A DNA stretch of 64,000 nt, from positions 55,571 to 119,570 of the forward strand of contig MFYT01000009.1 in assembly GCA_001789205.1 (NCBI GenBank), written 5' to 3'. Positions 22,067 through 56,519 of the stretch are shown one piece after another. The stretch is from Candidatus Raymondbacteria bacterium RIFOXYA2_FULL_49_16. GTDB taxonomy: Bacteria > Fibrobacterota > OXYB2-FULL-49-7 > XYB2-FULL-49-35. Each line of letters starts with the position of its first letter. Within the stretch, counting starts at the first letter, position 1. The notes under the pieces are model-generated. The model was not told the DNA's origin, searched no databases, and worked only from the letters and a program-made list of their open reading frames with translations. The translations under genes and the position numbers were made by a program.

Positions 22067-22118
22067 CTCTTTTTCGCATTGTTCCGCTTCGTGCTCAACT
22101 ATTATTTTCTTGTTCATG
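22067..22118 (+). promoter_or_regulatory. Leaderless-type promoter element, copy A
   Basis: CGCATTGTTC at 22075-22084, then TATTAT at 22100-22105, then exactly 10 bases to the ATG at 22116. The segment GCTnAACnATTATnTTCTTG just before the ATG is nearly repeated, with the same spacing, before the HEAT gene at 29233. No SD site is present, so the hexamer is read as a -10 box whose transcript would start at or near the ATG. Confidence 0.45.
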
Positions 22119-24074
22119 CCTGCTATTCTTTCACTTTGCATCCTTGTCTTCTCTGTCATGCTGGAGCCGCTTGAGGCGCAGGTCCTTTTTTACGAAGATT
22201 TCGAAAACACGGACGTCAGTCTTTCGTGGGAGCAACCTGAAGGCCCAAAACCGTGGCTTACCTTGTCAGAAAAGAGCGCATTTTCAGGGACCCGCGGTGT
22301 CAATATCACAAATGGCGAAAGTCACATGGCGCGGCGTAACCTGATGTGGCCCGTTGCCTCGTCGGCCTGCACGGCCGGGGTCTATCTGGCTTTTCGGTGC
22401 AGGTTCAACGCGCCCGGCCTTGGCGATACGGCTGGCGCACTAGAACGTTTTCCCCTGGTACATTGGGAAATTACCGCGGGAAACAGCAAGTTCAGTAACC
22501 CCACGCTGCTGGTGGTTCAGAACAGCCAGGGCAATCCCTGCTTTCGCATGCTGTCACGAAACCATAAAAGCGCGGAACCTGTGACGACCGGAGACACACC
22601 GCTTACAACCGTGACTCCGGATACGTGGTATTCGCTTGGCATCTATGTCCGGCTCAACGGCGCTGCGCTTATCGACTCCCTGTTCATAAACGGACAATGC
22701 GCGGGCGCGGCGAACATTGCGCTTGAGCAGGCGCCCCTGTTTCTGAATTATATCTCCTTTGGATTCAACAGAAAATCGAGCCTTCCCCTGAACAGCGTTG
22801 ACATTGACGATATTATTCTCACGCGTACGCGGACCGACCCCTTTCTTCCCTATCGGGTGGTCCGCAGACCAGCCGCCTTTGAGTATGTTGGTTCACCTCC
22901 TGTCAAATTCGAAATTCAACCGGACGCCATACCCGAAGGTTCACGTTCAATTCTCGTACATATATTACAGGATCACGCATGTATTGCCCAGAGCGTGTGC
23001 GCCATTGATTCACTAGTGACCTTTGACAATGTACTTGCCCCTCATATACCCTACACCTATTGCCTGATTTTCCAGGGAGGCGAATGCAGGTTTCCTGAAC
23101 AGCGGGGCGGTCCCTTTATGATCGCCGAACACGCAGAGGAGGAAGAAACGCGGTCTTTTGGCGCAGGCACAATCCGGTTTGTGTTGCCGCACGCCAATGC
23201 TGGCCGGGTGATGGCGGGCGATACGCTTTTGGTGGAACTTTCCTTTGAACCGCAGAAAGATGGGACCTGTTTTATTGATCTGAACATAGGATCGGTGAAG
23301 TTCTCCGAATCGCGGCACGAACGGTTCGGCGTGTATGATCCGGGAAAAAACCTGGTTTTCAGTCTCTGCAAACAGGACCTGGTCTATGGTAAGTACCAGG
23401 AAGGGACCAACCAGTTGAAAGCGGTCTCTCTTGTCGATACAGGAAGCGAGTATCCCTTTAATTTCATAGATGCCGGAGGATATTCGTTTGATCAGCGCAA
23501 AGGGAATGCGCGCTTTCCCTTTGTCATAACCCGGGACATGGAGCCTGGCATATGGACCATACGCGCGTATCTGGTGAACGAACACACGGGTCTGCGCCTT
23601 TCGTTCAATTCCCTCTTCTTTACTGTTGGCCGCCCTCTTTTTTCAGCAACGCACGTGCTGTTGGTCCTTTTCTGTGTGTGCGGCGCAATTGTTATACGTG
23701 TCCTTCTTCGCCGCAGGCAACGCAAAAACGAGCCGCCTTCCTCATCGTGGCTTTCCGTGGCTGATTCCATCGAAGAATTGATCATACAGACGTATAGAGA
23801 TACAAATCTTTCGAACAACACCATTGCCCAACACGTGAATTTGAGCACCCCCAAGGTTACTGAAATATACCAACGGGTAAAAGGAAAAACACCTGTGCAG
23901 CATATCCGGGAGATACGGCTCGAAAAAGCGGGTTTGCTGCTTAAAACCACCATGAAATCCGTTTCTGAAATAGCGTATGAGGCCGGCTTTTCAGATCCGG
24001 TCGTTTTTCAACGCAACTTCAAGAAACACAAAGGGTTAACCCCTGGCCAGTATCGGGATAAAAAATCTGATTAA
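22116..24074 (+). CDS. Transmembrane AraC-family regulator with periplasmic LamG-like sensor
   Basis: From the ATG at 22116 this is a 652-residue protein. A signal peptide or anchor (LSLCILVFSVMLEPLEA) is followed by a concanavalin/LamG-like periplasmic domain (about 24-240, LFYEDFENT to NSVDIDDIIL). An Ig-like region follows (about 375-505, with GVYDPGKNLVFSL). One membrane helix lies at about 511-532 (ATHVLLVLFCVCGAIVIRVL), and an AraC double helix-turn-helix at about 551-652 (TIAQHVNLSTP; SVSEIAYEAGFSDPVVFQRN). It likely senses a glycan outside and binds DNA directly. A full-length paralogue lies at 33030. The target is probably the next gene. The frame is open 28 codons upstream, but the ATG at 22116 starts the hydrophobic segment. 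Confidence 0.87.
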   Translation: MPAILSLCILVFSVMLEPLEAQVLFYEDFENTDVSLSWEQPEGPKPWLTLSEKSAFSGTRGVNITNGESHMARRNLMWPVASSACTAGVYLAFRCRFNAPGLGDTAGALERFPLVHWEITAGNSKFSNPTLLVVQNSQGNPCFRMLSRNHKSAEPVTTGDTPLTTVTPDTWYSLGIYVRLNGAALIDSLFINGQCAGAANIALEQAPLFLNYISFGFNRKSSLPLNSVDIDDIILTRTRTDPFLPYRVVRRPAAFEYVGSPPVKFEIQPDAIPEGSRSILVHILQDHACIAQSVCAIDSLVTFDNVLAPHIPYTYCLIFQGGECRFPEQRGGPFMIAEHAEEEETRSFGAGTIRFVLPHANAGRVMAGDTLLVELSFEPQKDGTCFIDLNIGSVKFSESRHERFGVYDPGKNLVFSLCKQDLVYGKYQEGTNQLKAVSLVDTGSEYPFNFIDAGGYSFDQRKGNARFPFVITRDMEPGIWTIRAYLVNEHTGLRLSFNSLFFTVGRPLFSATHVLLVLFCVCGAIVIRVLLRRRQRKNEPPSSSWLSVADSIEELIIQTYRDTNLSNNTIAQHVNLSTPKVTEIYQRVKGKTPVQHIREIRLEKAGLLLKTTMKSVSEIAYEAGFSDPVVFQRNFKKHKGLTPGQYRDKKSD

Positions 24075-24078
24075 TAAA

Positions 24079-24176
24079 AAGTCTCTTTTATTTTAAAATA
24101 GTCTCATCTGTTTTCATATAATCTGCTGTTTTATTTCCATTATCATTGTTTTAAAATTTCCCTGAAATTATATTTG
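24079..24176 (+). promoter_or_regulatory. Possible phased operator and promoter before the DUF6250 gene
   Basis: AAGTCTC at 24079, TAGTCTC at 24099 and TAATCTG at 24119 recur at exactly 20 bases, with a weaker TTATCAT at 24140. TATATTTG at 24169-24176 is a possible -10 box 29 bases beyond the last unit. The helical phasing and the adjacent regulator gene suggest AraC-type binding, but the region is AT-rich, so chance is possible. Confidence 0.4.
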
Positions 24177-24197
24177 CATTTAATAGTAGGGAGGTAA

Positions 24198-25262
24198 ATG
24201 ATGAAAACAGTGATCCGTGTTCTGGCACTGGCCGGTTTCTTCTCGGTTTCCCAGGGTTATGTTGTTGATTCCCTGTTGTTTGGCGATGATTTCGATGGTG
24301 CTCTTGAGAACTGGGTGTGCGAAACCGTCATCGGCGGCAGCGTGAACATCGTAAGCGGGGTTGTTGATATTGACGACAATGGCGGCACCGCGGTCTGGTA
24401 TAAATATCCACTGTCCGACAGCATTGCCATTGAATACAGCGCCCGCTGCTTAAGTGATGGCGCAAATTTGACTGATCTGAACTGTTTCTGGATGGCGCGC
24501 GACCGCGAAAGTACGCCTGTATTGTCGTTGGATAGCGCTTCGTTTTTCAATGCCGGCCGCACAGGCCTGTGGGCCACCTATCATTCGCTTGAGGCGTATT
24601 ACTTCGGCTATGGCGCAAATCTCAACACCACGTTTAACCTGCGCCGGTATTATGACCCAAACGCTCTTCCAACAGAAGTGCTGAGCATGCCGCGCGATGG
24701 TCACCGGGTCATTATTGCCAGCGACAACCAGACAGGCCTCATCACTGCGGGAACGTGGTACCGCTTCAAGGTGGTATATTTTAAGGGTCTCATAGAGGTA
24801 TGGGTAAACAATGTCAAACAATTTACCTATACTGAACAATCGTATGACGTGCCGTATAATCGCGGGTATTTTGGATTCCGTACCACCTATTCTGTCCATG
24901 CGCAGTTCGATTCTGTGCGCATCTTCCTGCTGAAAACAAGTTCAGCGAGCATAGACGACCACGGCATGAGAAACACCAAAGAGCAGGGGATCAAATGTTC
25001 TCCTAACCCGTTTAATCCAATGACAAAAATAACAATTCCGAATTTAATATTACAAAATACGAATGAAGAATTTAAAATATTTGACATACGGGGTAAACTG
25101 GTTAAGGACCTGACACCGGAAATTCGCTCGCCTCGCGTCGCCGCAGGCGAAGCGGGTAATTCCATTACCTGGGACGCCTCGGCCCTGCCATCGGGCGCTT
25201 ATATAATAAAAGCCCAGGCCGGTGCAAACGTGCTCACAAAAAAAGTAATTCTGGCGCGGTAA
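24198..25262 (+). CDS. Secreted DUF6250-like beta-sandwich protein with sorting-like C-terminal domain
   Basis: A 354-residue protein with a signal peptide (VIRVLALAGFFSVSQG). A DUF6250-type lectin-fold domain spans about 25-245. Its marks are FGDDFDGALENWVCE, TAVWYKYPLSDSIAIEYSA, LNCFWMARD, YYFGYGANLNTTFNLRRY and GYFGFRTTYSVHAQFDSV. Such domains occur beside polysaccharide-degrading enzymes; no catalytic activity can be assigned. The sorting-like tail starts at about 269 (SPNPFNPMTKITI). Its two loops contain repeat-like DNA, including a TCGCCT/AGGCGA palindrome. GGGAGG lies before a double ATG. It is the first gene after the membrane regulator. Confidence 0.8.
   Translation: MMKTVIRVLALAGFFSVSQGYVVDSLLFGDDFDGALENWVCETVIGGSVNIVSGVVDIDDNGGTAVWYKYPLSDSIAIEYSARCLSDGANLTDLNCFWMARDRESTPVLSLDSASFFNAGRTGLWATYHSLEAYYFGYGANLNTTFNLRRYYDPNALPTEVLSMPRDGHRVIIASDNQTGLITAGTWYRFKVVYFKGLIEVWVNNVKQFTYTEQSYDVPYNRGYFGFRTTYSVHAQFDSVRIFLLKTSSASIDDHGMRNTKEQGIKCSPNPFNPMTKITIPNLILQNTNEEFKIFDIRGKLVKDLTPEIRSPRVAAGEAGNSITWDASALPSGAYIIKAQAGANVLTKKVILAR
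25125..25154. repeat. Palindrome inside a sorting-domain loop
   Basis: CGCTCGCCT (25125-25133) pairs with AGGCGA-A-GCG (25145-25154) with one bulged base and an 11-base loop. It encodes RSPRVAAGEA, extra residues between the DL and W-D-A strands of the sorting-like domain. Confidence 0.5.
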
Positions 25263-25306
25263 TTGCGTTAATCCATGGCATGAGCCCAACCGAAAAGGAG
25301 CACACA

Positions 25307-26941
25307 ATGAGAAAGATATTCCTCATGTTTTTTTGTCTTTCTATGTTAAGCGGTTTGGCATTTTCTCAAAACAACACCAAACAACTGCTTAAGGGCCGCT
25401 ACTTGAACGTTGTGGGCGGATTTGACGTTCCCAATGTGCGAATTGATAATATGAACCTGATCTGGAGCCGTCTGCAGATCGACAAGCTGCCTGGAACAAA
25501 CACATGGGCCATCAGCCATCCATCCGGGTATGTGCTGGAACTGATTGAACCCGAGAGCCTCGGGGTGGTGGGAGAACCCTGGCCCGCAATGACAGAGGGC
25601 CGGCGCCAAGCTGCTTTTACTTCCGTGGATAAGATTAGTCCCCAAGGTGTGTTCTGGCTGAACCAGAACGAACTGCTGACTTCTGGCCGTAGATCATACC
25701 GCGGGCCGTTCGAACCTAACTGGATGGCTAGAATCAATATTCAAACCGGCGAGGAAATTCTTTACACCATAACATCTGAAGAGAATGAAGAGGGCCCTAA
25801 TTTCCATATGATGCAGGGACTGGGAGCGGGTTTTGTGCGGATCAGCGATACTGCCTGGGCCGCGACTTATGCAAACGGCAACGCCTTCCTTCTTGGCCGT
25901 GGAGGCTACGACGTACTCGGTTCACCGCTTGGCCCTGCCTTGGGGGTCTGGAACATTGATGAGCCTCACGCAAGATATCTGCTCGATTTTCCCATGGATC
26001 ATCCTCTTCGACGGGATCCTTACTATACCTATGCTGGCGGGGAAGCGCAGCAGCTCCTCATGTGGAAGGACCCGGATTCAAACGGGGGCTTCTGGCAGGC
26101 CGGGGACGTAGGCGGTTTGGCATTTATCAACCACCCGCAAGTCAAAGGTATTGTGGCAACCCACAATCATGGCCGGGGCCTGCACGACTATCGCGCCCAG
26201 GGAGACGGGGGTAGTGGAAGTTTTTTTCTTGTTCTTGATCCAGCCGTGTTTTACAGCACTGAAAGCAGCGGAGGCAACCGCGGCGACCATGAAAGCGATA
26301 CCAGTCTGGCACACTACCCCAAGGGCGTGTATGCGAGAGTTGGCCACATTTTTGACCCTGACCATCTTGCAGAGGTGGCCCAGGGTACTCGGCAGCCCTG
26401 GGAGTGTCCTTCCGAGCGTTTTGAATGGCCGCGCGCGGGCATCGAATGGAACGAGCAAGACAGGCCTACCCTGCTGGGCGCCGTGTATTGGGACAATGAG
26501 CGCCAATTGCTCTGGCTGGCCTTGGGCATGCCTGTGGTAAAACTGGTCGCTTACGAGATTGTCGTGGACGACAGCCGTCCAGAGGAACCGATGCGCCTGC
26601 CCGAGAGCTGGCTGGATAACGAGAAAAACCTGGTTCAGGCGGATATTACGGCAGATGATGTAATACAGGTTACCCCGAATCCGTTCAACCCGAGCACGGT
26701 GATAACCATCAATGCGGCATCTGCGCCGCAATTGAGGATATACAATATTCAGGGAACATGCGTCGCTTCTTTCCACCCCGGCGCGATTGCGTCTGGAGAT
26801 ACGTATTCCAGCCTGCACGGCAACGCACAGATAAAGACCGCATACACGTGGCGCGCCGCCGGCCAAGCGTCCGGTCTCTATATCGTCCATGCGGTTGTAC
26901 ATAAGCGTGTTTATACAAAACGAATAATATTTGAGAAATAA
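25307..26941 (+). CDS. Secreted protein of unknown function (propeller-like) with sorting-like C-terminal domain
   Basis: From the ATG at 25307, which has AAAAGGAG upstream, this is 544 residues. The signal peptide is RKIFLMFFCLSMLSGLAFS. The body (about 25-440) is rich in Trp, Gly and Asp with repeated short beta segments and looks like a beta-propeller or beta-solenoid. It shares segments with the protein at 43318: an AGGEAQQLLMWKDPD-like stretch, DPDHLAEVAQGTRQPWE (compare DPADVADVVQGQKQPYE), and a final Y-D-x-R/E-R-x-L/V-L-x-L/V-A strand. No family was recognised. The sorting-like tail begins at about 455 (TPNPFNPSTVITI). It follows the DUF6250 gene by 44 bases in the same direction. Confidence 0.75.
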   Translation: MRKIFLMFFCLSMLSGLAFSQNNTKQLLKGRYLNVVGGFDVPNVRIDNMNLIWSRLQIDKLPGTNTWAISHPSGYVLELIEPESLGVVGEPWPAMTEGRRQAAFTSVDKISPQGVFWLNQNELLTSGRRSYRGPFEPNWMARINIQTGEEILYTITSEENEEGPNFHMMQGLGAGFVRISDTAWAATYANGNAFLLGRGGYDVLGSPLGPALGVWNIDEPHARYLLDFPMDHPLRRDPYYTYAGGEAQQLLMWKDPDSNGGFWQAGDVGGLAFINHPQVKGIVATHNHGRGLHDYRAQGDGGSGSFFLVLDPAVFYSTESSGGNRGDHESDTSLAHYPKGVYARVGHIFDPDHLAEVAQGTRQPWECPSERFEWPRAGIEWNEQDRPTLLGAVYWDNERQLLWLALGMPVVKLVAYEIVVDDSRPEEPMRLPESWLDNEKNLVQADITADDVIQVTPNPFNPSTVITINAASAPQLRIYNIQGTCVASFHPGAIASGDTYSSLHGNAQIKTAYTWRAAGQASGLYIVHAVVHKRVYTKRIIFEK

Positions 26942-26960
26942 TTCCTTAGTGGAGGCAAAT

Positions 26961-29129
26961 ATGCATACGAAGTTCCTGGTTCCAGTCGTACTGTTTTCCA
27001 TTTATGGATTCGTTGCCGGGGCTGCTCCGGATAGCCTGACCGCAGTCCATAGACATGGTCAAACTTTTTTAACCTGGAAAGATGTTCCAGGCGCCACTGC
27101 ATACCGGATTTATAGAGCTGGAGGAGCAATGTCTCCCGCGGACCTGATTGTGGCGAACCGAATTGCGGAAATTCAAAGCGGTTCTTCAAAAATCGGATAC
27201 TGGGACATCACCCAAATAAAAGGAACCGCGGTCCGGGACTTCACCACGGCCATCGGTTCTGATTTTTACCGTATCGATGATCTGGGAACGCCTTTGAACG
27301 ATTCAAATGAACTGTTTGTATGGACCACCCAGGAATCAGGCGGCGGCGCCTTCCACTATACCGTTACGGCCGTAACCGGCGCTTCCGAGGATGCTTCCAT
27401 CGGCGCTGGAAACCGCGTTGGGCCTGTTTCTGAAAATGAATGCGTCATGATTTGGCCCGTGGAACAGGCCCGCACCGCCGACCAGTCGGGCCACGTATTC
27501 ATGATGTGGATGCCCTATGACAAATGGGCCCTTGATTTTCAGGGATATGCCTATCCCATATACCTGGCCGCAAAACCGGAATTTATTGGACAAAAGAAAA
27601 AGGTGGTCCTGCACATGCATGGCGCGAGCGCCTATTTCAACGCATGGATGAATGACGGTTCCACCATTAAAACCGCTGTCGAGGCCCTTGCGTCCGACTA
27701 TCTCATGGTCATTGCCGATGACCCGGGCATGTCCTGGCATTTCGGGTTTGCAGACACCAAGCAGAACGGCGTCAACACCATTGCCGATGGCAGTGTGGTT
27801 AAAAACTACACTCAATACCGTAACTGGTGCATGATACGCTGGCTCATCTCGGGTCAGGCACCGTGGCTTGGCGACAGCAACGAAGTGGCGGCGCTAGGCC
27901 ATTCCATGGGAGGCACGGGCTCCATGACCTTTGCCATCCAGCATCCCGAGATATTCGCCTATGTGGAGTATGCTTCCGAGGGGATCAACAACTGGCTCAT
28001 GGACCCGCCCTACCGGGCAGACGGCTGGGCAAAAAATTTCGCCTACTGCATAGGAAGCGAGGACCAGGACCTGGAATATCGGGACCTTATCAGCAAGGAT
28101 AAGCTGATTGACAACCAGGATATGGGCATGCGCGCCTGGGCATGGCTCTCAATGCGCGACAGCGTTACCCTGGCATACAGGAACCGGGACGATCTGCCCT
28201 TTCTCAATTTTTGTCATGGTACGCAGGACGGATCTATAGACTGGGAACCACAGGGCCTGCCGGTGTGGCAAGACCACAATGCCAACCCGTTTGCGGCCAA
28301 CCTGTTTCCTTATTCGGGCTGCTGGGTAAACAGGGGCCATTCGAGTCAGGGCGCCAAGGGCGCCAACCCCAGCGGATATGTGCCAAAAAACCATTTTGTA
28401 CTGGCCTTGAAAAATGCCTCCTCTGACGATCAGCTCAATCCAGCATGCGATGCCGTGTCCTGCGCGGACAGCGGTCAGTTCAATGCGCGTATTCTCTGGT
28501 CAACGGAGCGGACAACCATTAACGAACCGCCAGTAGATAGCCCCGATGAATTCAGCACAACAATCAAGCTCGATACAAAAACCATTTATTACCTCCCGGT
28601 ATACGGCGGATCTGGAACCGAGACTGTGGACATAACGCCAAGGCGGCTCCAGCAATTCCCGCGCATTCCGTATGCGGAGTATGACTGGCAGAACATTCCA
28701 GCCGGAGGCGGTGCTCCAGTGCAGAACGGAACTGCTATTGCTGATCAATACGGCATGTTTACCATTGAGGGTTTTCGATTCAGCGTTGCAGGAAACAAGC
28801 TGGTGGTTACAACTTCCAGTGCGGGCGCAACCGTCAATGCCGGTTTAGATGATCAGGAAGTCATGATCAAAACAAGTCCAAATCCGTTCAATCCGGTAGT
28901 GACAATAGCTGTCAGAAATCAGCAGGCAATTGGCAGCAAGACCATCGTGTTTGAAATATTCGACGTTCACGGAAACCTTGTTGCTAAACTGCCGGCTGTT
29001 AGTCCGGCCTGCGGCGGACTGCCTGCTGAAATAACCTGGAACGCGGCAGGAAAGGCTTCCGGTGTGTATATTGTCCGCGCTGTGGCAAAGAATCGCGTAC
29101 ATACTACCCGTATAATATATTCAAAATAA
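26961..29129 (+). CDS. Secreted alpha/beta-hydrolase (esterase-like) with Fn3-like N-domain and sorting-like tail
   Basis: From the ATG at 26961 (GGAGG upstream) this is 722 residues. The order is signal peptide (FLVPVVLFSIYGFVAGA), an Fn3-like domain (about 20-150, HGQTFLTWKDVPGATAYRIY to GPVSENE), then an alpha/beta-hydrolase. The nucleophile elbow is GHSMGGTGS with S315. A CHGTQDGSIDW segment would give the acid and NRGHSSQG a His. A further beta domain (DITPRRLQQFPRIP) precedes the sorting-like tail at about 638. Three relatives are at 34904, 46137 and 61830. An esterase acting on acylated glycans is the best guess. The second tail loop carries an AGTCCG/CGGACT palindrome. Confidence 0.8.
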   Translation: MHTKFLVPVVLFSIYGFVAGAAPDSLTAVHRHGQTFLTWKDVPGATAYRIYRAGGAMSPADLIVANRIAEIQSGSSKIGYWDITQIKGTAVRDFTTAIGSDFYRIDDLGTPLNDSNELFVWTTQESGGGAFHYTVTAVTGASEDASIGAGNRVGPVSENECVMIWPVEQARTADQSGHVFMMWMPYDKWALDFQGYAYPIYLAAKPEFIGQKKKVVLHMHGASAYFNAWMNDGSTIKTAVEALASDYLMVIADDPGMSWHFGFADTKQNGVNTIADGSVVKNYTQYRNWCMIRWLISGQAPWLGDSNEVAALGHSMGGTGSMTFAIQHPEIFAYVEYASEGINNWLMDPPYRADGWAKNFAYCIGSEDQDLEYRDLISKDKLIDNQDMGMRAWAWLSMRDSVTLAYRNRDDLPFLNFCHGTQDGSIDWEPQGLPVWQDHNANPFAANLFPYSGCWVNRGHSSQGAKGANPSGYVPKNHFVLALKNASSDDQLNPACDAVSCADSGQFNARILWSTERTTINEPPVDSPDEFSTTIKLDTKTIYYLPVYGGSGTETVDITPRRLQQFPRIPYAEYDWQNIPAGGGAPVQNGTAIADQYGMFTIEGFRFSVAGNKLVVTTSSAGATVNAGLDDQEVMIKTSPNPFNPVVTIAVRNQQAIGSKTIVFEIFDVHGNLVAKLPAVSPACGGLPAEITWNAAGKASGVYIVRAVAKNRVHTTRIIYSK
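29001..29020. repeat. Palindrome inside a sorting-domain loop
   Basis: AGTCCG (29001-29006) and CGGACT (29015-29020) flank 8 GC-rich bases. It falls at the same loop of the sorting-like domain as the palindromes at 25125 and 61363. Confidence 0.45.
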
Positions 29130-29141
29130 AAATCACGCTCG

Positions 29142-29181
29142 CCCGGCCGGCAACAAACCCCCTCTTGCGCCGGCCGGGTTT
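29142..29181 (+). terminator. Terminator after the DUF6250-to-esterase gene group
   Basis: Perfect 10-bp arms CCCGGCCGGC (29142-29151) and GCCGGCCGGG (29169-29178) with a 17-base loop are followed by TTT. It lies 13 bases after the esterase stop and separates this operon from the HEAT-GT2-YaiO group. Confidence 0.7.
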
Positions 29182-29182
29182 C

Positions 29183-29235
29183 CCCGTTTCCCGCATTGTT
29201 CTTACGTCCGCTGAACGATTATCTTCTTGGTCATG
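29183..29235 (+). promoter_or_regulatory. Leaderless-type promoter element, copy B
   Basis: CGCATTGTTC at 29192-29201, then GATTAT at 29217-29222, then 10 bases to the ATG at 29233. The distances between these parts are the same as before the regulator at 22116, and 16 of the last 20 bases before the ATG match that copy. Confidence 0.45.
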
Positions 29236-30342
29236 CACAATGCCCTTCCCCAGGCAAGCGAAACCCTGCACCAGATTTCGCTCAATACGCTCGCGGGGCT
29301 CCTTGTTCTTCTTGCCGCCATTACACTCTACGCGCTGCTGAAACATCGGACCAACAACAGGCTCCAGGAAATTATGGACCGCCTTATCCCGCGTTTTGAA
29401 GGGCTTATTGCCGCAGGCCGGGCAGGCGCCTTTGATCTTGCGCTCATTGCCGATGTACTGCAGCCAACGCATTATGATTTTTTCGAGCGCTTCTTGCGAA
29501 ACAAGATCAGCCATCTCGAACCCGCTGATCTTTCGGTGGAACGAAGGCTGGCCAATATTTCAGGCTTTGTGTCATGGGTGAGGAAACGGGCGCAAGAAAA
29601 GAAAAAATGGCAGCAGGCCATTGCCCTGCGCACTCTCACCTATTTCCGCGACCCGGCCGACATTCCTCTTTTCAGGTCCATACTCGACACCTGGACCTTT
29701 TTTCCCTGCGCCTATGCAGCTGTCATAGGCCTTGGCCTGTGCAACGACACCCAGTCAATAGAACCAATCATCTGCCGGATCTCACGCACAAACAGTCCCA
29801 ACCGCGATGTTCTGCTCACCGTGCTCAACCCGCTGGTAAAAGACGGGGCCGAGGAAATGCACCGGTTGCTCAAGTCAGGCAAACTGCACGAGGCAGCGGT
29901 GTGCGTGCTCATAGACCTGCTGCGCGAACACGGTTACCGGCCCGCTCACAACACGCTCGAAAGCCTGTTGGAAAAATCAGAAAGCGAAGAAATCCGCATC
30001 CACTGCATTGAAGCGCTCAGTGTTCTCGGCGATGCCGAGAGCGTGGATATCCTGATTCCCTTTTTAGTCGAGGACAATTTCAAGCTCCGGCTCAAAGCCA
30101 TTAGCGCGGTTGCACGGTTGTTCGGCGGCCGCGCCCTTCCCTTTGTTGAAAAATACATCCGCGACATGAACTGGTGGGTAAAGCGGACTGCGGCAGAGGC
30201 CCTCTACCGCATGGGCAGCCAGGGCCAGGAACGGCTCGCCGCGATAGCCGCCGCGCCGGGCGACCAGGCCTCCATGATGGCCAAACTGATTCTTGCGGAG
30301 GCCGCGTGCGGCAGGCTGCGGGGGGAAATCAAGGGTGTATAA
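29233..30342 (+). CDS. Membrane-anchored HEAT-repeat protein
   Basis: A 369-residue protein with one N-terminal helix at about 18-37 (NTLAGLLVLLAAITLYALL). Alpha-helical HEAT-like repeats fill the rest, for example IRIHCIEALSVLGDAESVDI and FKLRLKAISAVARLFGGRAL, then WVKRTAAEALYRMGSQGQE. It most likely scaffolds the glycosyltransferase encoded directly after it, whose ATG begins one base beyond this stop. The ATG at 29233 has no SD site; a TTG two codons earlier is less likely. Confidence 0.8.
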   Translation: MHNALPQASETLHQISLNTLAGLLVLLAAITLYALLKHRTNNRLQEIMDRLIPRFEGLIAAGRAGAFDLALIADVLQPTHYDFFERFLRNKISHLEPADLSVERRLANISGFVSWVRKRAQEKKKWQQAIALRTLTYFRDPADIPLFRSILDTWTFFPCAYAAVIGLGLCNDTQSIEPIICRISRTNSPNRDVLLTVLNPLVKDGAEEMHRLLKSGKLHEAAVCVLIDLLREHGYRPAHNTLESLLEKSESEEIRIHCIEALSVLGDAESVDILIPFLVEDNFKLRLKAISAVARLFGGRALPFVEKYIRDMNWWVKRTAAEALYRMGSQGQERLAAIAAAPGDQASMMAKLILAEAACGRLRGEIKGV

Positions 30343-30343
30343 C

Positions 30344-31771: not shown

Positions 31772-32970
31772 TGAAACCATACGCTTGTGTCCGGGTCCTC
31801 GTATTGTACGCTGCCATGCACTGGTCTGGGATGTTGCTTTTTGCTCAGCCTGTTGTTCCCACCTACGAAGATCGCATGACAGAGGCCCTTGAATTGCGGC
31901 GACAGGGCCATGCCGCCTTAGCGGAAAAACTGTACGACACTGTTTTGCGTGACAACCCCAAGGACGTTGACGCGCTGGTGGGCAGGGGCTTTTGCCGGCT
32001 TGGGGACCCGTCGCGGGCCCATGAGGCGCTCAATGACTTCAGGACAGCGGCCGCCCTTGCCCCGCGCTACGCGGACGCCTATATCGGCATGGCGCGCGCG
32101 TGCGAGCTCAAAGGCAAACGCTCCATGGCCACGGCGATCCTGAAAGACGGCATAAATGCCCTGGCAACGGACAGCGCGGCATCGCGGTATTTTGCGCATC
32201 TCTGCTGGGAAAACAGCTTTTTCCCCACTGCGCGCGCGGTTGACAAAGCTTTTAAGCCCGATCCTGGCCGCGCACTTATCGCACGGCCCTTTTCGGCCAT
32301 GGCCGACGAGTCATACGACCGGCTGTTCAACGATGATACGTGGTGGGTGTCGAGTCTTGTGGTCCAGTACAAACCCAGGCCCGACCTGCAGGCGTGGGCA
32401 GCGGCAATGCCTGTGGGCAGATACCAGCGCACGGATTTTCTGGCAGGCGCTGGTGCGGCCTTCAGGTACGACAAGTTCCTCTCCCTGACCTACGAAGGCC
32501 TGTTCTCGGACAAGGCTGGTTTTTGTCCGGTCCAGAAGCATCGGCCCCTGGTCTTGTACGCACTGTTACGTTCCACAGTGCTTGGTCTTGGCGCTGACCT
32601 TTCCGCATATGCGGACGGTTGGGCGCGTCTTGGCAGGGCCGAGATCACCCAGTATGCGGGCGATTCGTATGCCCATTACGCGTTCATAGCCGGCAAGGAC
32701 AATGTTGACCAGAATATTGTCGCGCATGTGGGCGACATGCAGTATGTGCGCGATGGAAAATTTGCCATTGGTTTTGGCGGTTCCTATGGTAACGAGACCG
32801 CTGACCTCGTGGGAAGCGAGTATACGCAGAGCCTTGTGCAGTCGATTTTCGCCTCATTTTCATTTGTTATAAATCCCCTGGTCGCACTACGGACAACGCT
32901 GGGCAGGGAATGGCGCGACCATGATTCCTTCAGGACCATGGTGAATGTGGGAACAACGGTGAATTTTTAG
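31771..32970 (+). CDS. TPR protein with YaiO-type outer-membrane beta-barrel
   Basis: A 399-residue protein with a signal peptide (ending LLFAQP). TPR-like helices follow at about 32-150 (ALELRRQGHAALAEKLYDTV). The C-terminal part of about 180 residues has alternating strands typical of the YaiO barrel family and ends in VNVGTTVNF with a terminal Phe. YaiO-like barrels accompany polysaccharide synthases and probably let the polymer cross the outer membrane. Its ATG shares one base with the glycosyltransferase stop (TAATG). Confidence 0.8.
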   Translation: MKPYACVRVLVLYAAMHWSGMLLFAQPVVPTYEDRMTEALELRRQGHAALAEKLYDTVLRDNPKDVDALVGRGFCRLGDPSRAHEALNDFRTAAALAPRYADAYIGMARACELKGKRSMATAILKDGINALATDSAASRYFAHLCWENSFFPTARAVDKAFKPDPGRALIARPFSAMADESYDRLFNDDTWWVSSLVVQYKPRPDLQAWAAAMPVGRYQRTDFLAGAGAAFRYDKFLSLTYEGLFSDKAGFCPVQKHRPLVLYALLRSTVLGLGADLSAYADGWARLGRAEITQYAGDSYAHYAFIAGKDNVDQNIVAHVGDMQYVRDGKFAIGFGGSYGNETADLVGSEYTQSLVQSIFASFSFVINPLVALRTTLGREWRDHDSFRTMVNVGTTVNF

Positions 32971-33029
32971 GCCCTGTCCTGTTTGGACATGTCAATAATG
33001 AAGGGGAAAAAAGTATATTTTCACCGTCA

Positions 33030-34697
33030 ATGAAAAAAATTCTCCGGTTCCTTATCGCCCTCGCTGTTCCATGTCTTTGCGCAAACGTGACTGATGGACC
33101 TTTGTTTCTTGACGGTTTTGAAAACGCCAATCCCTTTGCCGGTTGGGAAATTATCTCCCCCGATCCTGTGGAAACATGGGCCCTGGTTGAGACCAGAACA
33201 GCGTCTTCCGGCGCAAAGTGCCTCCGGCTGGTTCCAGGAAACCTGCATATTCTGATCAAACGGACCCTTATGCCTGTCCATGCTGCCTCTGTGGCCAAAG
33301 GGTTCTATTTCTCATTCGATTTCAAGATAGACAAGGCCAGTATAACAGCCGGACCCAGCGGTCCTCTCTGGGGCACGCTCCTTTCATGCGTTATGTCCGG
33401 GTCTTGGCCATTGTATGGCAATCCAACGGTGCTTATCGAAAAACAAGGGTCTGATCTTTTCTTAAAAATGCTCATGCGCCAGAAGCACGGCGACATGCCG
33501 CTTACCATCCCGCCCGATCCCGTGGTACGCGTTGCACCGGATAGATGGCATGCGCTCTCAGTGTTTGTGAGCATACGGGATTCCGTGCTGATTGATTCGC
33601 TTTTCTATGATGACCGTTGCATAGGCGCTGGTACGCGCAGGTTCATAGTCATGCCGGCCATGATCGAGAAAATCGAATTGGGGCAAGAACGCAAAGATGG
33701 CCTGCCGGTTTCCTCAATTTGTTTTGATAATGTCAGCATATCAGCCAAGCGGACGGTAAACACACAACCCGCAAACCTGATGACACTGCGGCCGGATCGC
33801 GGCAACAACCCGGTATTCTCGGTTGGGGACACGCTGTATCTTGACTTTATCGTTAACCCAATGACACGGAATGATTATATTGACCTGAATTTCCGGTTGA
33901 CGTCATTTGAGGGATCAAAATTAGACCGGTACGGGGTTTTGGATAAAAAAAGAAACCTTGTCTTTAGTTTGTATGATTCAGCGCGAGTCCCCTATAAAGA
34001 CCAGGAAGGGCTCAATTCATGGGGCGCCGTCTCCAAGGACGCCATTGCTTTGCGTTCATATCCCTTTACAACGCTTCTCATGGACGCATACTATTTCAAT
34101 CCGCGTAATGGAGAAGGGACCATTGCATTGCGTATTAACAAGGACTTTGAACCAGGGCGCTGGGAGATCAATGCCTGCATGGTGCATACAGGGCAAAGTA
34201 ATGACGCGCAGGTCCTGCCGTCACTATCTTTTTATATAAAACCGCGTTATCCAAAATTGCGGCTGTTGATCGGCTTGGCGGCCGGCCTGATCAGCCTTGT
34301 TATTGTGTCAATGGTCTATACGAGACGCTCCGTGGTAAAAGACACCGCGTTAAAAGGGGACCTTAGCGACATTGTGCTGAAAATAGACGACTTTCTTGCC
34401 AACAACTACGCAAACAACGACCTATCGCATGAAGATATCGCGAAACATGTATTTTTAAGCAAACCGCACACAAATATGCTCTATAAGCGGTCCCAGGGCA
34501 TATCACCCATGCAAAAATTACGTGATATCCGGATGCAAAAAGCCTGTGAATTGCTGCTTTCCACTGAAAAATCCATTTCCGACATTGGTTTTGCGGTTGG
34601 CTTTCAGGACCAGAACAATTTTCTGAGAAGTTTCAAAAAATCGATTGGTTTTTCACCAAGCGATTATCGAAAAACGAGGAAAAACCAGCCCAGGTAA
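33030..34697 (+). CDS. Transmembrane AraC-family regulator with periplasmic LamG-like sensor (paralogue)
   Basis: A 555-residue paralogue of the protein at 22116. A signal peptide (ILRFLIALAVPCLCA) and a LamG-like domain (about 24-245, LFLDGFENANPFAGWEI; IDSLFYDDRCIGAG; ICFDNVSIS) come first. An Ig-like domain (about 265-405, with GVLDKKRNLVFSLYD), a membrane helix at about 412-430 (LIGLAAGLISLVIVSMVY) and an AraC domain at about 447-555 (DIAKHVFLSKPHTNML; SISDIGFAVGFQDQNNFLRS) follow. Periplasmic and DNA-binding parts are both conserved with the paralogue. TATATT ends 10 bases before the ATG and no SD site is close. The gene after it, with a phased repeat array in front, is the likely target. 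Confidence 0.87.
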   Translation: MKKILRFLIALAVPCLCANVTDGPLFLDGFENANPFAGWEIISPDPVETWALVETRTASSGAKCLRLVPGNLHILIKRTLMPVHAASVAKGFYFSFDFKIDKASITAGPSGPLWGTLLSCVMSGSWPLYGNPTVLIEKQGSDLFLKMLMRQKHGDMPLTIPPDPVVRVAPDRWHALSVFVSIRDSVLIDSLFYDDRCIGAGTRRFIVMPAMIEKIELGQERKDGLPVSSICFDNVSISAKRTVNTQPANLMTLRPDRGNNPVFSVGDTLYLDFIVNPMTRNDYIDLNFRLTSFEGSKLDRYGVLDKKRNLVFSLYDSARVPYKDQEGLNSWGAVSKDAIALRSYPFTTLLMDAYYFNPRNGEGTIALRINKDFEPGRWEINACMVHTGQSNDAQVLPSLSFYIKPRYPKLRLLIGLAAGLISLVIVSMVYTRRSVVKDTALKGDLSDIVLKIDDFLANNYANNDLSHEDIAKHVFLSKPHTNMLYKRSQGISPMQKLRDIRMQKACELLLSTEKSISDIGFAVGFQDQNNFLRSFKKSIGFSPSDYRKTRKNQPR

Positions 34698-34766
34698 CAT
34701 ATCTTCTTATTTTTCAATGCATTACTATCAAAACAAGCTTTACCCGTAGCGTCCTTTTCATAGAAA

Positions 34767-34864
34767 ATGCCGAAAATCTTAGAAAAAGCCGAACGATTCT
34801 TCATAAATGCTGAATCAATTGCAGTAAAATGCCTTTGCAACGAACCAGTTGGGAAATATATTAT
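34767..34864 (+). promoter_or_regulatory. Phased half-site array and promoter of the 852-residue esterase
   Basis: AAATGCCGAA (34767-34776), AAAAGCCGAA (34786-34795), AAATGCTGAA (34807-34816) and AAATGCCTTT (34828-34837) are spaced 19, 21 and 21 bases, all on one face of the helix. AATATTAT (34857-34864), 29 bases after the last unit, is a fitting -10 box. This is the layout of an AraC-type activator bound next to RNA polymerase. The membrane regulator immediately upstream is the prime candidate. Confidence 0.55.
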
Positions 34865-34903
34865 TAAAAAATAATCGCCATAACCCGCAAAAAGGAGGAG
34901 TGT

Positions 34904-37462
34904 ATGAAATATGTACTCATGTGTTTCTTGGCTGTCAGCGCCATAACCGTTTTTTGCGCCACTTCCACGCGAAGCTTTACCAATAGTCCAAGCAGGGGTT
35001 CGGACCCGGCAACGCTGTCAAAATCCAGCAACACAATCACCGTGAACCTGTCCGCCATCCAGGACGCCCAGGTATACCGGGCCGTACTGAATCCATATGT
35101 CAATGTACACTGGCAGAACAACGGCTGCACGGCCAATGACGCCAGGGTTGTACTTACCAGCGGGGACACTGTCCGGCCAATGCCGCCCCGGTATCTTTCG
35201 TTTGACCTGACAGAAGCGGTGGCCGCCGCAATCGCGTCCGGGACCATTACCTTTACCCTTACCGGCATCCAGTGCATCCACTTGACAGACCTTATCTCGC
35301 TTGATGTTATGTGCGACAGAGCTGCTCCCGCGGCCATTGCCCAGGTAACAGGGACCGAGGCGCGGTTCAAGGACGGGGACGCCATGATCACGTTCCATGA
35401 AGTGAATCCCTTTTTTACCACGGACAGCGTTACCTGCACGGACGTGATCAATGCCAAGGCAGCCATGAGTGACCCAAAAGTGCGTTACCGGATCTACCGT
35501 TCAAACCAGCCATTGACAACTGAAGAGGCTATCCGGACAGCGACCTTTGTCGACGAAATAGGGCCGTTGTCAAATTGGAATCCCATGTTCTACGGCGACG
35601 GCAACTGCAACTGGTCATGGACCGCCTCAAAACTTCTCCAGATAGTCCCCCGGCTCCCCAAGGACGACCTGGTGCTGACCGATCCCGATGAAGGCATATA
35701 TGTCAATCGATTCACCGGGACCGGCATTGAAACAGCGTATTATTTTGTGAGTCATTCGGTTGACGGAGCAGAGGACTTCTCGCTGTTAGAGAATGACCGC
35801 AATGCGGCCGGTCCTGTCGAGGAGTCAACTGGTCCTGGCATGGTCGTCAAACGTGTAGAGGAAAGTCCGGCTGTCTGGCAGTTTATCACCAATCCAACGC
35901 TGCATTATTACGTACGCTGGGAATGCCCGCCAACGTGCAACAAACCGAGTCAGGCGTACGATTATCTTGTGGCAATACCTTCATCCGGAATGAAGGCCAG
36001 CAATGGCCTCAGCGTGGCATTGCATTGTTGGGGAGCAAGCCTGCAAGAACCAGTGCCAGGATGGACCCCGGGCCTGACCGGGAGCAAAGGCTATCTCCTT
36101 CTTTCCACGAACCAGTGGCCGTATGACTGGTGGACCGCCTATAATGAAAATTACGAGACATTGAAAAACTTGGGCAAAGGATCGGTAAAGCCCTTTACCG
36201 AGGTCCGCATACTGTCCTTTCTCTATGATTTCGTCAAAGATGGCTATAGTATTGACATGAACCGGGTGACCCTGGGCGGCCAGTCAATGGGCGGGACAGG
36301 CACTTCCCTGTGGGGTCTGCGGAGCGGTCATATTTTTTCCATGTTGTTTTCCTATGTCGGCGTTCACAAGCCCTCTGAATCGCCTTCATTCACCTCTTCG
36401 TTCAAAGGTATTTTCGGGGATCCTGCTGTCTATACCTGTTATTACTCCAACGAAGCGCTGGAACGGTTCGGGTATCCGGTCATCCGGCCCCAAGACAGCG
36501 TATATGTGTGGGATTACTGGGACAATACGCAATGGCTGCGCGCGAACCCGACAACGGAGACCCCGTGGATAGCGTTGTCCAACGGCCTGAACGATGGACA
36601 AATCGGCTGGCCGCAAGCGACAAAAAATGAGGCTGCGCTGCGAGAGACCAAACGGCCCTATAACTTTCATTGGGACATGCAGGGCCACGGATGCCAGGTC
36701 CGGTATCCCGGGTCAGGGATTGTTGAATTCAAAAAGTACCAGTCCGTGCCTGTATTCTCAAATTGCTCATTTAATACCGATATCCCGCCCTCGGTCTCCG
36801 ATACTACCGCGACCAACTCTAAAGGGGAGGTCAACAGGTATTTTGACTGGAAGGCGGACAGCATTGTCGATCAGACTGACCGCTGGGAAATAAGTCTCAA
36901 ACTCGCGTATGTTGATAACGTCTATCCGCCAACACTGCCCCCGGCGGACTCATGCGCAGTAGACATTACCCCCCGCAAGCTGCAGGCCCTTGAGCATGGT
37001 CCTGGATCCACCTATTCCTGGGAACTGGCGCAGGGCGTAACAACGCTTGCAAACGGCACTGCGACAGCGGATTCAAACGGGCTGGTCACCATTCCGCAAT
37101 TGTCAGTCACAAAAACATACCGTACCCTGAAACTTTCATGCATCCAGTGCACGGCCGGGGCCGGCAAGCCGCAAACACCGATGATGGAGTCTTATTCCCT
37201 TCGTAACGCGCCCAACCCGTTCAACCCGGGCACAGTGATAGAATTCGACGCGGGAAAGACAACGCAGAAGGTCACGGTTTCAGTATACGATCTTTCAGGC
37301 AAACTGATAAAAAAACTGGCGGACCAGAGACTGTCTGGAAAGCATTCCGTTTCCTGGAACGGCAAAGACATGCGCAACACTGATGCGGCAAGCGGTATCT
37401 ATATCACCAGGATGAGCGTGGGCAACCGGGTGGTTGTGAACAGAATGGTCCTTGTCAGGTAA
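34904..37462 (+). CDS. Large secreted alpha/beta-hydrolase (esterase-like) with extra N-terminal beta domain and sorting-like tail
   Basis: The longest of the four related esterases, 852 residues. A signal peptide (YVLMCFLAVSAITVFCA) is followed by an additional N-terminal domain of about 120 residues (to LDVMCDRA) resembling a carbohydrate-binding jelly roll. The Fn3-like domain (AMITFHEVNPF to RNAAGPVEES) and the hydrolase follow. Its elbow is GGQSMGGTGTS with S461, its likely acid segment SNGLNDGQIGWPQ, and its likely His segment MQGHGCQVRYPGSG. A DITPRKLQALEHGPG domain precedes the tail at about 768 (APNPFNPGTVIEF). GGAGG precedes the ATG. It lies directly after the membrane regulator at 33030. 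Confidence 0.8.
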   Translation: MKYVLMCFLAVSAITVFCATSTRSFTNSPSRGSDPATLSKSSNTITVNLSAIQDAQVYRAVLNPYVNVHWQNNGCTANDARVVLTSGDTVRPMPPRYLSFDLTEAVAAAIASGTITFTLTGIQCIHLTDLISLDVMCDRAAPAAIAQVTGTEARFKDGDAMITFHEVNPFFTTDSVTCTDVINAKAAMSDPKVRYRIYRSNQPLTTEEAIRTATFVDEIGPLSNWNPMFYGDGNCNWSWTASKLLQIVPRLPKDDLVLTDPDEGIYVNRFTGTGIETAYYFVSHSVDGAEDFSLLENDRNAAGPVEESTGPGMVVKRVEESPAVWQFITNPTLHYYVRWECPPTCNKPSQAYDYLVAIPSSGMKASNGLSVALHCWGASLQEPVPGWTPGLTGSKGYLLLSTNQWPYDWWTAYNENYETLKNLGKGSVKPFTEVRILSFLYDFVKDGYSIDMNRVTLGGQSMGGTGTSLWGLRSGHIFSMLFSYVGVHKPSESPSFTSSFKGIFGDPAVYTCYYSNEALERFGYPVIRPQDSVYVWDYWDNTQWLRANPTTETPWIALSNGLNDGQIGWPQATKNEAALRETKRPYNFHWDMQGHGCQVRYPGSGIVEFKKYQSVPVFSNCSFNTDIPPSVSDTTATNSKGEVNRYFDWKADSIVDQTDRWEISLKLAYVDNVYPPTLPPADSCAVDITPRKLQALEHGPGSTYSWELAQGVTTLANGTATADSNGLVTIPQLSVTKTYRTLKLSCIQCTAGAGKPQTPMMESYSLRNAPNPFNPGTVIEFDAGKTTQKVTVSVYDLSGKLIKKLADQRLSGKHSVSWNGKDMRNTDAASGIYITRMSVGNRVVVNRMVLVR

Positions 37463-37483
37463 CGCGACATCCACCCGAATCAG

Positions 37484-37518
37484 GCCCGGTGCGTCCCTAA
37501 AAACGCGCCGGGCTTTTT
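37484..37518 (+). terminator. Terminator after the large esterase gene
   Basis: Arms GCCCGGTGCGT (37484-37494) and ACGCGCCGGGC (37503-37513) pair over 11 bases with one G-U and an 8-base loop, followed by TTTTT. Confidence 0.8.
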
Positions 37519-37616
37519 AAAAATCCACCATACACGCAAAAAATCCAAAAAATACCAAGGTGTTCGCTTTCAAAAGTAATCATTGATGCCGGAAAGAATA
37601 TATATTTTAAAACAGT

Positions 37617-39176
37617 ATGCGGGTCTCCAAAGTCTTCATTATTTCTTTCCCGTTGGTCCTGCTCATGCTTTTTCTCCCAATCATACGGCCACACCATGCA
37701 TCCGCAGCCCCCTGCTTAACAAAACCGGTCAATGGAAGCGTGCTTTCAGCCTCGCTTGTACGCGTGGCCGTGGACGTTGACACGAATATGGATGCCGTCA
37801 AGAAAGTGACCTTCCTTGCCGGCTACTACAAATCACTCGATGTCCTCAAGATATACCGCTTTCCGGAACAACTGCCCGTGGATACCATCGGCATTGCTGA
37901 AAAATCGCCCTACGAGGTCTTGTGGGACATTTCCGGAATCCCTGATCAGGACCAATACCGCCTTTCATTCGGATTCGCTGTGGAATACAAGGATGGTGCA
38001 ACATTCACGAAAGATATGCAATACGGTGTGGCAAAGGAGCAGTTTTATATCATCGACAGGAATCCGGTCCTGAAAGGCATTACCCTGAATTCATTGTTCA
38101 TGGAACCGGCCCCTGTGGTCGACGGCGCGCTCAACGAATGGCGCACGTGCGATTCCGCTGTCTTTCACAACAATGACAACACCATCACCATCTGGTCGGC
38201 ATGGGACCAGCAACGGCTCTTTTTTGCCGCACGCGTACTTGACGACACCCTGGTAGCATTGCCTCACCGTGATTTCTCGGTCAGCAGGAGTGGTGAACAG
38301 TTCCTGAGAAACTTCCTCTGGGACGGCGTGGAGTTTGACTTTGATTTTAACAACAATCACAGTGAATTCAAGGATTCTGGCGACGCGGAGATTTGTATTG
38401 GCGTTGATTCCTCGTTTGTGGGACGCAAAGACTACGTTGTCAATGGCGGGAACATTGAACGGTTCGGCGCCGGGATAGCGTATTGCGTCCAGCGGATGTC
38501 CGAAGGATACTGCGTTGAAGTGGCTGTCCCCTGGAAGGACGCGGGCGTGCGGCCCAACAACGGAAAGACCATTGGGTTCGATGTCATCAACAAGGACCGG
38601 GACGACACTGCGGGCTACGCGCTCTTTTCATCGTGGAGCGGAGTCCAGAGCTTCAACAGCGACAACCCCAGCGAATGGGGCAATCTCAAGCTGACCGGGA
38701 ACAAAAAACCCTTCAAGGCCTTGCCCGTTGCGAGCATTGCCCTGTGCTTTTTATTGGCTGCCGTCCTTCTGGTTCTATGGAGGAAAAAGCCGGCAACAGC
38801 GCCTGCCGGAAACATGCCGGCAACAGCGTTCAGCCAGAGAGGCAGCGATGAGGACAGGATACGGATGATACGGGAGTATATTGAAGCGCATTACATGACC
38901 GAGGAATTCAACCTGAAACAGGCGGCTGACCATTTCAAGATGAATTATTCCTATTTCAGCACCCTTTTCAAGGATTTGCTGGGCCAGACGTTCCCGGATT
39001 ATATTAACAAGAAACGCATTGAAAAGGCCAAGGGACTGCTGAGAACAACCAATGCGTCCATCACCCAGATCGCCCTGGACCTTGGGTTTAAGACCCCTTC
39101 CTATTTCAACAAGATATTCAAGGACCTGGAGGGCGTTACGCCCTCTGATTACCGGGGTTCCGGTATCCAGGGATAA
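37617..39176 (+). CDS. Transmembrane AraC-family regulator with periplasmic CBM9-like domain
   Basis: A 519-residue protein. A signal segment (IISFPLVLLMLFLPIIRP) is followed by an Ig-like domain (about 30-140) and a CBM9/DOMON-like domain at about 165-360. That domain shows PVVDGALNEWRTCDSAVF, WSAWDQQRLFFAARVLDD, FLWDGVEFDFDFNN and YCVEVAVPWKDAGVRP. One helix lies at about 368-388 (LPVASIALCFLLAAVLLVLW), and an AraC domain at about 415-519 (QAADHFKMNYSYFSTL; SITQIALDLGFKTPSYFNKI). CBM9-like domains bind sugars, so direct glycan sensing is inferred. TATATT ends 10 bases before the ATG and there is no SD site. It converges with the PAS-AraC gene, 12 bases apart; its target is not evident. Confidence 0.87.
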   Translation: MRVSKVFIISFPLVLLMLFLPIIRPHHASAAPCLTKPVNGSVLSASLVRVAVDVDTNMDAVKKVTFLAGYYKSLDVLKIYRFPEQLPVDTIGIAEKSPYEVLWDISGIPDQDQYRLSFGFAVEYKDGATFTKDMQYGVAKEQFYIIDRNPVLKGITLNSLFMEPAPVVDGALNEWRTCDSAVFHNNDNTITIWSAWDQQRLFFAARVLDDTLVALPHRDFSVSRSGEQFLRNFLWDGVEFDFDFNNNHSEFKDSGDAEICIGVDSSFVGRKDYVVNGGNIERFGAGIAYCVQRMSEGYCVEVAVPWKDAGVRPNNGKTIGFDVINKDRDDTAGYALFSSWSGVQSFNSDNPSEWGNLKLTGNKKPFKALPVASIALCFLLAAVLLVLWRKKPATAPAGNMPATAFSQRGSDEDRIRMIREYIEAHYMTEEFNLKQAADHFKMNYSYFSTLFKDLLGQTFPDYINKKRIEKAKGLLRTTNASITQIALDLGFKTPSYFNKIFKDLEGVTPSDYRGSGIQG

Positions 39177-56496: not shown

Positions 56497-56519
56497 TCCT
56501 TTAACCGCATTCGTTGAAA

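Follow-up and report, generated by a model that had tools for sequence, protein, structure and literature searches.

Predicted single-pass membrane AraC regulators often precede type IX-secreted enzyme genes and operator-like tandem repeats in a Raymondbacteria genome

How might a bacterium connect a signal outside its inner membrane to the genes for its exported enzymes without a sensor kinase? The question is raised by a 64-kb stretch of contig MFYT01000009.1 from Candidatus Raymondbacteria bacterium RIFOXYA2_FULL_49_16 (hereafter, the window), where three genes encode AraC proteins predicted to be anchored in the membrane. The assembly that holds the window comprises 5.43 Mb in 112 contigs. 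Judging from sequence, we consider it likely that the three proteins are membrane one-component activators, each wired mainly to its own downstream operon of proteins exported by the type IX secretion system (T9SS).

Three regulators join a predicted periplasmic sensor to an AraC domain

The three genes, called here by their start positions, are intact open reading frames (ORFs) encoding 652 (22116), 555 (33030), and 519 (37617) amino acids. HTH_18 (HTH, helix-turn-helix) occurs at 54 places in the 5.43-Mb genome. Classes A, B, and C were defined by extracting the large HTH_18 proteins and comparing the regions N-terminal of the AraC domain; class D, short AraC proteins, was a comparison set only. 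The genome encodes 24 membrane AraC regulators and 10 cytoplasmic class C proteins. Eighteen of the membrane proteins belong to class A (about 550 to 770 amino acids, with a signal peptide, a jellyroll, an immunoglobulin-like [Ig-like] domain, and one transmembrane helix; 22116 and 33030 are members), and six belong to class B (N-terminal beta domain, CBM9, and one transmembrane helix; 37617 is a member).

22116 to 24074, plus strand: class A regulator; signal peptide, jellyroll, extra domain, Ig-like domain, transmembrane helix at about 23652 to 23708, HTH_18 at 23823 to 24059.
33030 to 34697, plus strand: class A regulator; signal peptide at 33033 to 33083, jellyroll at 33099 to 33749, Ig-like domain at 33777 to 34238, transmembrane helix at 34251 to 34343, AraC domain at 34362 to 34682.
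37617 to 39176, plus strand: class B regulator; signal peptide, N-terminal beta domain, CBM9_1 at 38163 to 38699, transmembrane helix at 38721 to 38777, HTH_18 at 38925 to 39155.

Pfam places HTH_18 at the C terminus of 22116, 33030, and 37617 (E values of 1.4e-19, 4e-19, and 5.2e-22, respectively) and, over its cut-off, CBM9_1 (PF06452) at residues 183 to 361 of 37617 (E, 2.5e-15). In each protein, a hydrophobic stretch lies at the N terminus, and a single strong helix ends up 36 to 47 residues ahead of the HTH. No kinase or receiver domain was found, HTH and CBM9 being the only domains above the Pfam cut-off in the three regulators. An AlphaFold2 model of 33030 (mean predicted local distance difference test score [pLDDT], 85.7) has a signal peptide helix at residues 2 to 18, a jellyroll at about 24 to 240, an Ig-like domain at about 250 to 403, a helix at 408 to 438, and the AraC domain at 445 to 551; in 22116, an additional domain separates the jellyroll from the Ig-like domain that the two proteins share. 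In VIA, the AraC domain of 33030 matched AraT (6swi) with a Z score of 18.1 and a root mean square deviation (RMSD) of 2.7 over 113 aligned residues. By Pfam and VIA, this C-terminal double-HTH AraC domain places the protein in the AraC/XylS family.

Topology is predicted from sequence or model throughout. All 24 membrane paralogues are predicted to be single pass, with a juxtamembrane linker of 32 to 49 residues between the transmembrane helix and the HTH. Lysine and arginine are in excess on the HTH side of the helix in 21 of the 24 (P = 3e-4; totals, 102 after and 54 before), as would be expected for a cytoplasmic AraC domain; 37617 is one of the three exceptions (3 after and 4 before), and 33030 is a tie. 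Pfam, the model, and helix prediction bear out what a sequence-only reading of the window had proposed for the three genes, i.e., a single chain with no kinase or receiver, in which a signal peptide and periplasmic beta domains are followed by one membrane helix and, at the C terminus, an AraC domain. An extracytoplasmic sensor, a transmembrane helix, and a DNA-binding domain in a single chain make up a membrane one-component transcription factor.

Regulator genes often precede genes for T9SS-secreted proteins

ORFs were called by a simple script around all 34 regulator genes, and T9SS tails, of which the genome has at least 150, were marked. Because paralogues are in part dependent on one another, neither individual cases nor the precise P values of these gene-order tests should be taken too strictly. 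A T9SS gene lies directly downstream on the same strand of 15 of the 24 class A and B genes, compared with 12 of 124 (9.7%) ordinary genes in the same stretches (P = 8e-8) and none of the 10 class C genes (P = 7e-4). Class C genes are instead divergent from a T9SS gene in 8 of 10 cases, an arrangement found for none of the 24 membrane regulators (P = 2.5e-6). The gap between regulator and target has a median of 167 bp (typically 150 to 220 bp), while that between T9SS genes has a median of 39 bp (P = 4e-4); the longer gap leaves room for a promoter. Two presumed targets lie in the window.

24198 to 25262, plus strand: secreted DUF6250 protein with a T9SS tail, 123 bp downstream of the 22116 regulator.
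34904 to 37462, plus strand: secreted esterase-like protein with a T9SS tail, 206 bp downstream of the 33030 regulator.

Secreted proteins of the esterase-like, GDSL, metallophosphoesterase, flavin adenine dinucleotide oxidoreductase, GH30, and Sde182-like types are encoded downstream of the regulators. By their sequences, the targets are mainly esterases, GDSL proteins, and hydrolases of other kinds; clear glycan enzymes are few among them. The neighbors had been described as secreted and glycan directed; T9SS secretion was found, and the second half of the description holds only in part.

Tandem repeats lie in several of the gaps between regulator and presumed target

The gaps after class A regulators often contain two to four tandem repeats about 21 bp apart. 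When pooled, these gaps are self-similar at 18 to 21 bp, with a peak lag of 21 bp (z = 4.5). The motif common to them is of the type TTTYCnnnAAAAAnGCCG, in tandem at 19 to 22 bp, with a likelihood of 190 versus 61 to 83 in shuffles. When 486 kb was scanned for chains of at least two motifs, the regulator gaps ranked on top. A literal pattern search for paired repeats returned only C79:2439 and one unrelated place.

In a held-out test, for which three close paralogues were withheld together, 6 of 14 gaps (those of 33030, L080, L081, L085, L087, and L090) scored within the top 1.3% when set against 150 control intergenic strands. The gap behind another class A regulator, C79:2425-2482, which was outside the training set, also scored. 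With a genome-wide model, five training gaps were recovered at an E value of 2e-9 or better. The next place (C64:30783-30837, locus L115; E, 3e-3) has repeats resembling an array and is flanked by two divergent secreted genes, far from any AraC gene; from its sequence, it is a possible distal target in the class A regulon.

The gap after 33030 holds the following two sites.

34755 to 34834, plus strand: four tandem direct repeats of the TTTTCATAGAAAATGCCG type, spaced by 20, 21, and 21 bp; presumed operator.
34834 to 34862, plus strand: sigma-70-like promoter match (TTTGCA, 17 nucleotides, TATATT), the -35 hexamer of which abuts the last repeat.

Among the three most closely related paralogues (33030, L022, and L027), the downstream repeats are near identical. 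Three overlapping promoter-like matches were found in the 33030 gap versus 0.6 expected, and a search of this gap for terminator-like sites found none. The layout of repeats and promoter resembles that of AraC sites next to a -35 box; the spacing of araI1 and araI2 is 21 bp. Gene position and operator-like repeats together support the earlier suggestion that these proteins are local sensors.

Matches to the CBM9 form span 22 genera of the phylum, and a soluble class is oriented differently

In a set of 167 genomes that covers 40 genera of the phylum, strong matches to the class A and class C sensors were confined to the own genome, and the class B sensor had matches in 36 genomes from 22 genera, the own genome counted. 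The search of related genomes that the sequence-only reading had called for did recover sensor-membrane-AraC fusions, of the CBM9 form. For the class B relatives inspected first (L057 to L067), a C-terminal AraC match was found in 10 of 11 and a strong hydrophobic helix before it in all; Pfam confirmed HTH_18 in three relatives (two of these and one more) and CBM9_1 in two of the three. As far as the examined genomes show, with no relative closer than phylum level listed, the CBM9 form appears to be of long standing in the phylum, whereas that with a jellyroll looks like an expansion of this lineage. No relative turned up in two scans of genome contigs, made with alignments of the class A and the class B sensors, a result that does not by itself show absence outside the phylum. 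Searching plasmids with 33030 by tblastn gave AraC-domain matches only, none covering 80% of the protein.

The neighbors of class B genes in other genera include nadA and genes for an aminotransferase, a sugar transferase, and an HD-domain response regulator; polymer degradation is therefore not necessarily the ancestral role. Several of the CBM9-containing orthologues in other genera (L133 to L149) end in an acidic tail and match AraC only weakly.

The 10 class C proteins (about 550 to 590 amino acids) lack a signal peptide and a transmembrane helix. One lies next to 37617.

39189 to 40868, minus strand: class C paralogue; PAS-like N terminus, lectin-like jellyroll at residues about 200 to 395, AraC domain, no signal peptide or transmembrane helix.
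41135 to 42247, plus strand: secreted GDSL lipase with a T9SS tail, divergent from the 39189 regulator and its presumed target.

The class C model is of lower confidence (pLDDT, 78.3). Its PAS-like N-terminal region gives weak sequence matches to DosP and PpsR, and its jellyroll resembles galectins and L-type lectins, the closest being the Bacillus subtilis galectin-like protein 1oq1 (Z, 17.3; 185 aligned). An intracellular lectin-like domain on an AraC protein, as in 39189 to 40868 and its nine paralogues, seems unusual.

Elsewhere in the window, a Fic/DOC gene (55398 to 56453) is flanked by genes for two secreted proteins that resemble each other, each combining Exo_endo_phos and CBM96 with a T9SS tail (48294 to 50156 and 56514 to 58376), and two ORFs of 525 and 385 amino acids in the secreted cluster (43318 to 44895 and 44909 to 46066) have no convincing Pfam match.

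Sensor folds and the nature of the signal

The nearest solved folds to the 33030 jellyroll (model residues 23 to 247) in VIA were PL20 glucuronan lyase (2zzj; Z, 19.2; RMSD, 3.1; 202 aligned), Cip1 (3zyp; Z, 18.3; 189 aligned), X122 (8q2a; Z, 17.7; 195 aligned), and GH131 (Z, 17.4). The VIA rows mainly span residues 22 to 247, and we claim no family for the Ig-like domain. As modeled, the 33030 jellyroll belongs to the fold shared by PL20, Cip1, and X122, and the class A jellyroll is a fold of polysaccharide-active proteins. Cip1 (3zyp) was also the sole sequence match below 0.01 for the jellyroll sensor (E, 0.0025, over 47 residues). Jellyroll relatives share a conserved inner-face site (Arg100 in Cip1 and Arg118 in TtX122A), and Arg150 of 33030 is invariant across the class A alignment. 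The two class A genes had been assigned LamG-like and Ig-like sensors. In broad terms, that assignment stands. LamG gave no Pfam match at an E value of <1, and we dropped the family name; the jellyroll class is alike in outline. Clostridial neurotoxin binding domains, which appeared among the top Foldseek rows for 33030, were set aside as a generic jellyroll-plus-beta layout and not kinship (TM score, <0.3; large RMSD).

The CBM9-like sensor proposed for 37617 was confirmed by the Pfam match given above and by a match of the class B profile to TmCBM9-2 (1i82; E, 3e-14). Sugar is clamped between two aromatics in TmCBM9-2 (Trp71/Trp175) and in CBM9.3 (Tyr89/Trp191) (PMC8280721). Read by eye from alignments of low identity and uncertain register, the first clamp aromatic is retained in about five of the six class B proteins, and the second position is Tyr in two of six and absent in 37617, where there is an aromatic only around the first position. 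From its sequence, the two-aromatic clamp of 37617 thus looks incomplete. For the X122 domains, the structural study detected no clear activity or binding, and its authors state that no function has been demonstrated for Cip1 (PMC10916295). With no ligand known for either X122 or Cip1, a CBM9 clamp that looks incomplete, and targets that are mostly esterases, carbohydrate sensing by these domains is putative; the earlier label of carbohydrate-binding-like domains was right for the folds in outline, with a genuine CBM9, and goes beyond the data as to binding.

The same observations bear on an alternative that we regard as rather unlikely, namely, that the periplasmic domains sense protein partners or export status (T9SS cargo or the envelope state) and that their folds are retained scaffolds. 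The lack of shown carbohydrate binding by X122 and Cip1, the seemingly incomplete clamp of 37617, and the housekeeping neighbors of orthologues in other genera, such as nadA, all suit it, and the targets have T9SS export in common more than glycan chemistry. However, strongly diverged sensors and varied target enzyme classes fit many ligands better than one export signal, one clamp aromatic is retained in most class B members, and some targets are glycan directed (GH30 and Sde182-like).

A proposed mechanism by direct activation of the adjacent operon

Several observations count against each regulator acting on its own downstream operon. The motif was derived from the gaps themselves, and the independent evidence for it is the held-out test and C79:2425-2482 only. 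Eight of 14 class A gaps, that of 22116 among them, and the class B gaps lack a significant array of the motif, so the operator is supported for a subset only. A fixed distance from the repeats to the -10 element was sought across loci, and no constant value emerged. The 37617 gene has no directly downstream gene on the same strand, the next gene being convergent and 12 bp away; the nearest candidate target is the upstream secreted gene.

Nine of the 24 regulators lack an immediate downstream T9SS gene, and the array-like C64:30783-30837 (E, 3e-3) lies between divergent secreted genes far from any AraC gene, as would be expected if the regulators acted globally or on distant genes and adjacency merely reflected clustering in secreted-enzyme islands. 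We think this improbable, given the strict orientation bias, the promoter-sized gaps, and the fact that the strongest genome-wide arrays, found with a model trained on those gaps, are all in regulator-target gaps.

We favor membrane one-component activators of adjacent T9SS operons. In the proposed mechanism, the periplasmic jellyroll/Ig-like or CBM9 domains would detect a signal, most likely something that the secreted hydrolases of the same cell set free, and the single membrane helix would relay it through a changed dimer or cluster state. The cytoplasmic AraC domain would then bind the tandem sites, spaced by about 21 bp, just past its own gene and bring RNA polymerase to the operon next to it, which encodes enzymes exported by the T9SS. 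Site and position have support from sequence for several class A members, including 33030. The cytoplasmic PAS-lectin-AraC regulators may serve separate, divergent T9SS operons in parallel.

How a tethered AraC domain reaches its promoter had been called open, which overstates the difficulty. For CadC, diffusion and capture is supported, and the membrane-anchored regulator finds its site in about 4 to 5 min whatever the position of the site (PMC7888679). By analogy, the regulators here may reach DNA by diffusing in the membrane and capturing the locus. Transertion was considered as the cause of regulator-target adjacency and rejected, since the CadC relocation experiments speak against any need for it. 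Release of the AraC domain as a soluble factor, by regulated proteolysis close to the membrane helix, would suit the single-pass topology and the 32- to 49-residue linker of all 24 proteins but is very unlikely, as the evidence for the comparable single-pass CadC favors diffusion and capture of the intact protein.

Comparison with known systems

A 2008 report on Saccharophagus degradans describes 16 of 31 AraC proteins as membrane bound, 13 of them paralogous, with several of the genes adjoining polysaccharide degradation (cellulase) genes, and proposes a polysaccharide-sensing role (PMC2386152). The two cases share a lineage-specific expansion of membrane AraC proteins, enzyme genes as neighbors, and the proposed role. 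The S. degradans examples given there have 2 or 6 to 7 transmembrane regions, whereas those here have a signal peptide and one transmembrane helix, together with T9SS targets, a fixed gene order, and operator-like tandem repeats.

SusR of Bacteroides is a membrane one-component regulator reported in Bacteroidetes only, with a DNA-binding domain that has no significant similarity to known families (PMC3878776). The proteins here resemble it in having a periplasmic sensor, a cytoplasmic DNA-binding domain, and predicted direct-repeat sites, but their DNA-binding domain is AraC, which sets them apart from SusR-like proteins, and their repeats are about 21 bp apart as opposed to 67 or 77 bp. With the hybrid two-component systems (HTCS) of Bacteroidota, they share a periplasmic sensor and an AraC output in one chain, and an HTCS was the solved structure that the 37617 AraC domain matched best in sequence. 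They differ in the lack of a kinase or receiver above the cut-off, for which the short membrane-to-HTH spacing leaves its 32 to 49 residues, and in a jellyroll/Ig-like or CBM9 sensor in place of the usual COG3292 sensor. Machinery of the Bacteroidota type was not seen, with no SusD match and no Y_Y_Y domain above the cut-off.

CadC and ToxR are likewise single-pass inner-membrane activators with a periplasmic sensor and direct action on DNA. Their output domain is an N-terminal winged helix, whereas the AraC output here is at the C terminus. YesS and YtdP of Bacillus are also membrane proteins with an AraC output, and YesS is encoded at a locus related to pectin; these are Gram-positive proteins whose extracytoplasmic sensor and topology are unlike those described here. 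A literature search for membrane AraC proteins in Fibrobacter-type bacteria found nothing on point. SusR, CadC, and the Saccharophagus membrane AraC expansion are thus precedents. New here are the single-pass form, the lyase- and CBM-type sensors, the 24 copies, the T9SS targets, the local tandem repeats, and a soluble sister class in the opposite orientation.

More tentatively, and somewhat short of an even chance in our estimate, the whole may form a modular, lineage-specific scheme replacing the SusCD/HTCS of Bacteroidota. Each T9SS operon would have its own sensor, either a codirectional membrane AraC protein with a lyase-like or CBM-like periplasmic sensor and a tandem 21-bp array or a divergent cytoplasmic PAS-lectin-AraC protein, so that outside and inside signals would be read separately.

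Taken together, the 24 proteins are probably single-protein switches that sense a signal outside the inner membrane and directly turn on adjacent genes for exported enzymes, as their sequences suggest. This arrangement is simpler than the multipart sugar-sensing systems of gut bacteria and larger and better organized than the published Saccharophagus idea. It would provide a kinase-free path from an extracytoplasmic signal to the export of degrading enzymes, with a regulator-operator-target unit recurring many times in one genome. The repeats would make the regulator code readable, with 24 regulators and their adjacent sites, and testable in a reporter, and the sensors may be a stock of single-gene biosensor parts. 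The contrast in orientation between the membrane-bound and soluble classes bears on whether tethering constrains where a target promoter can be placed.

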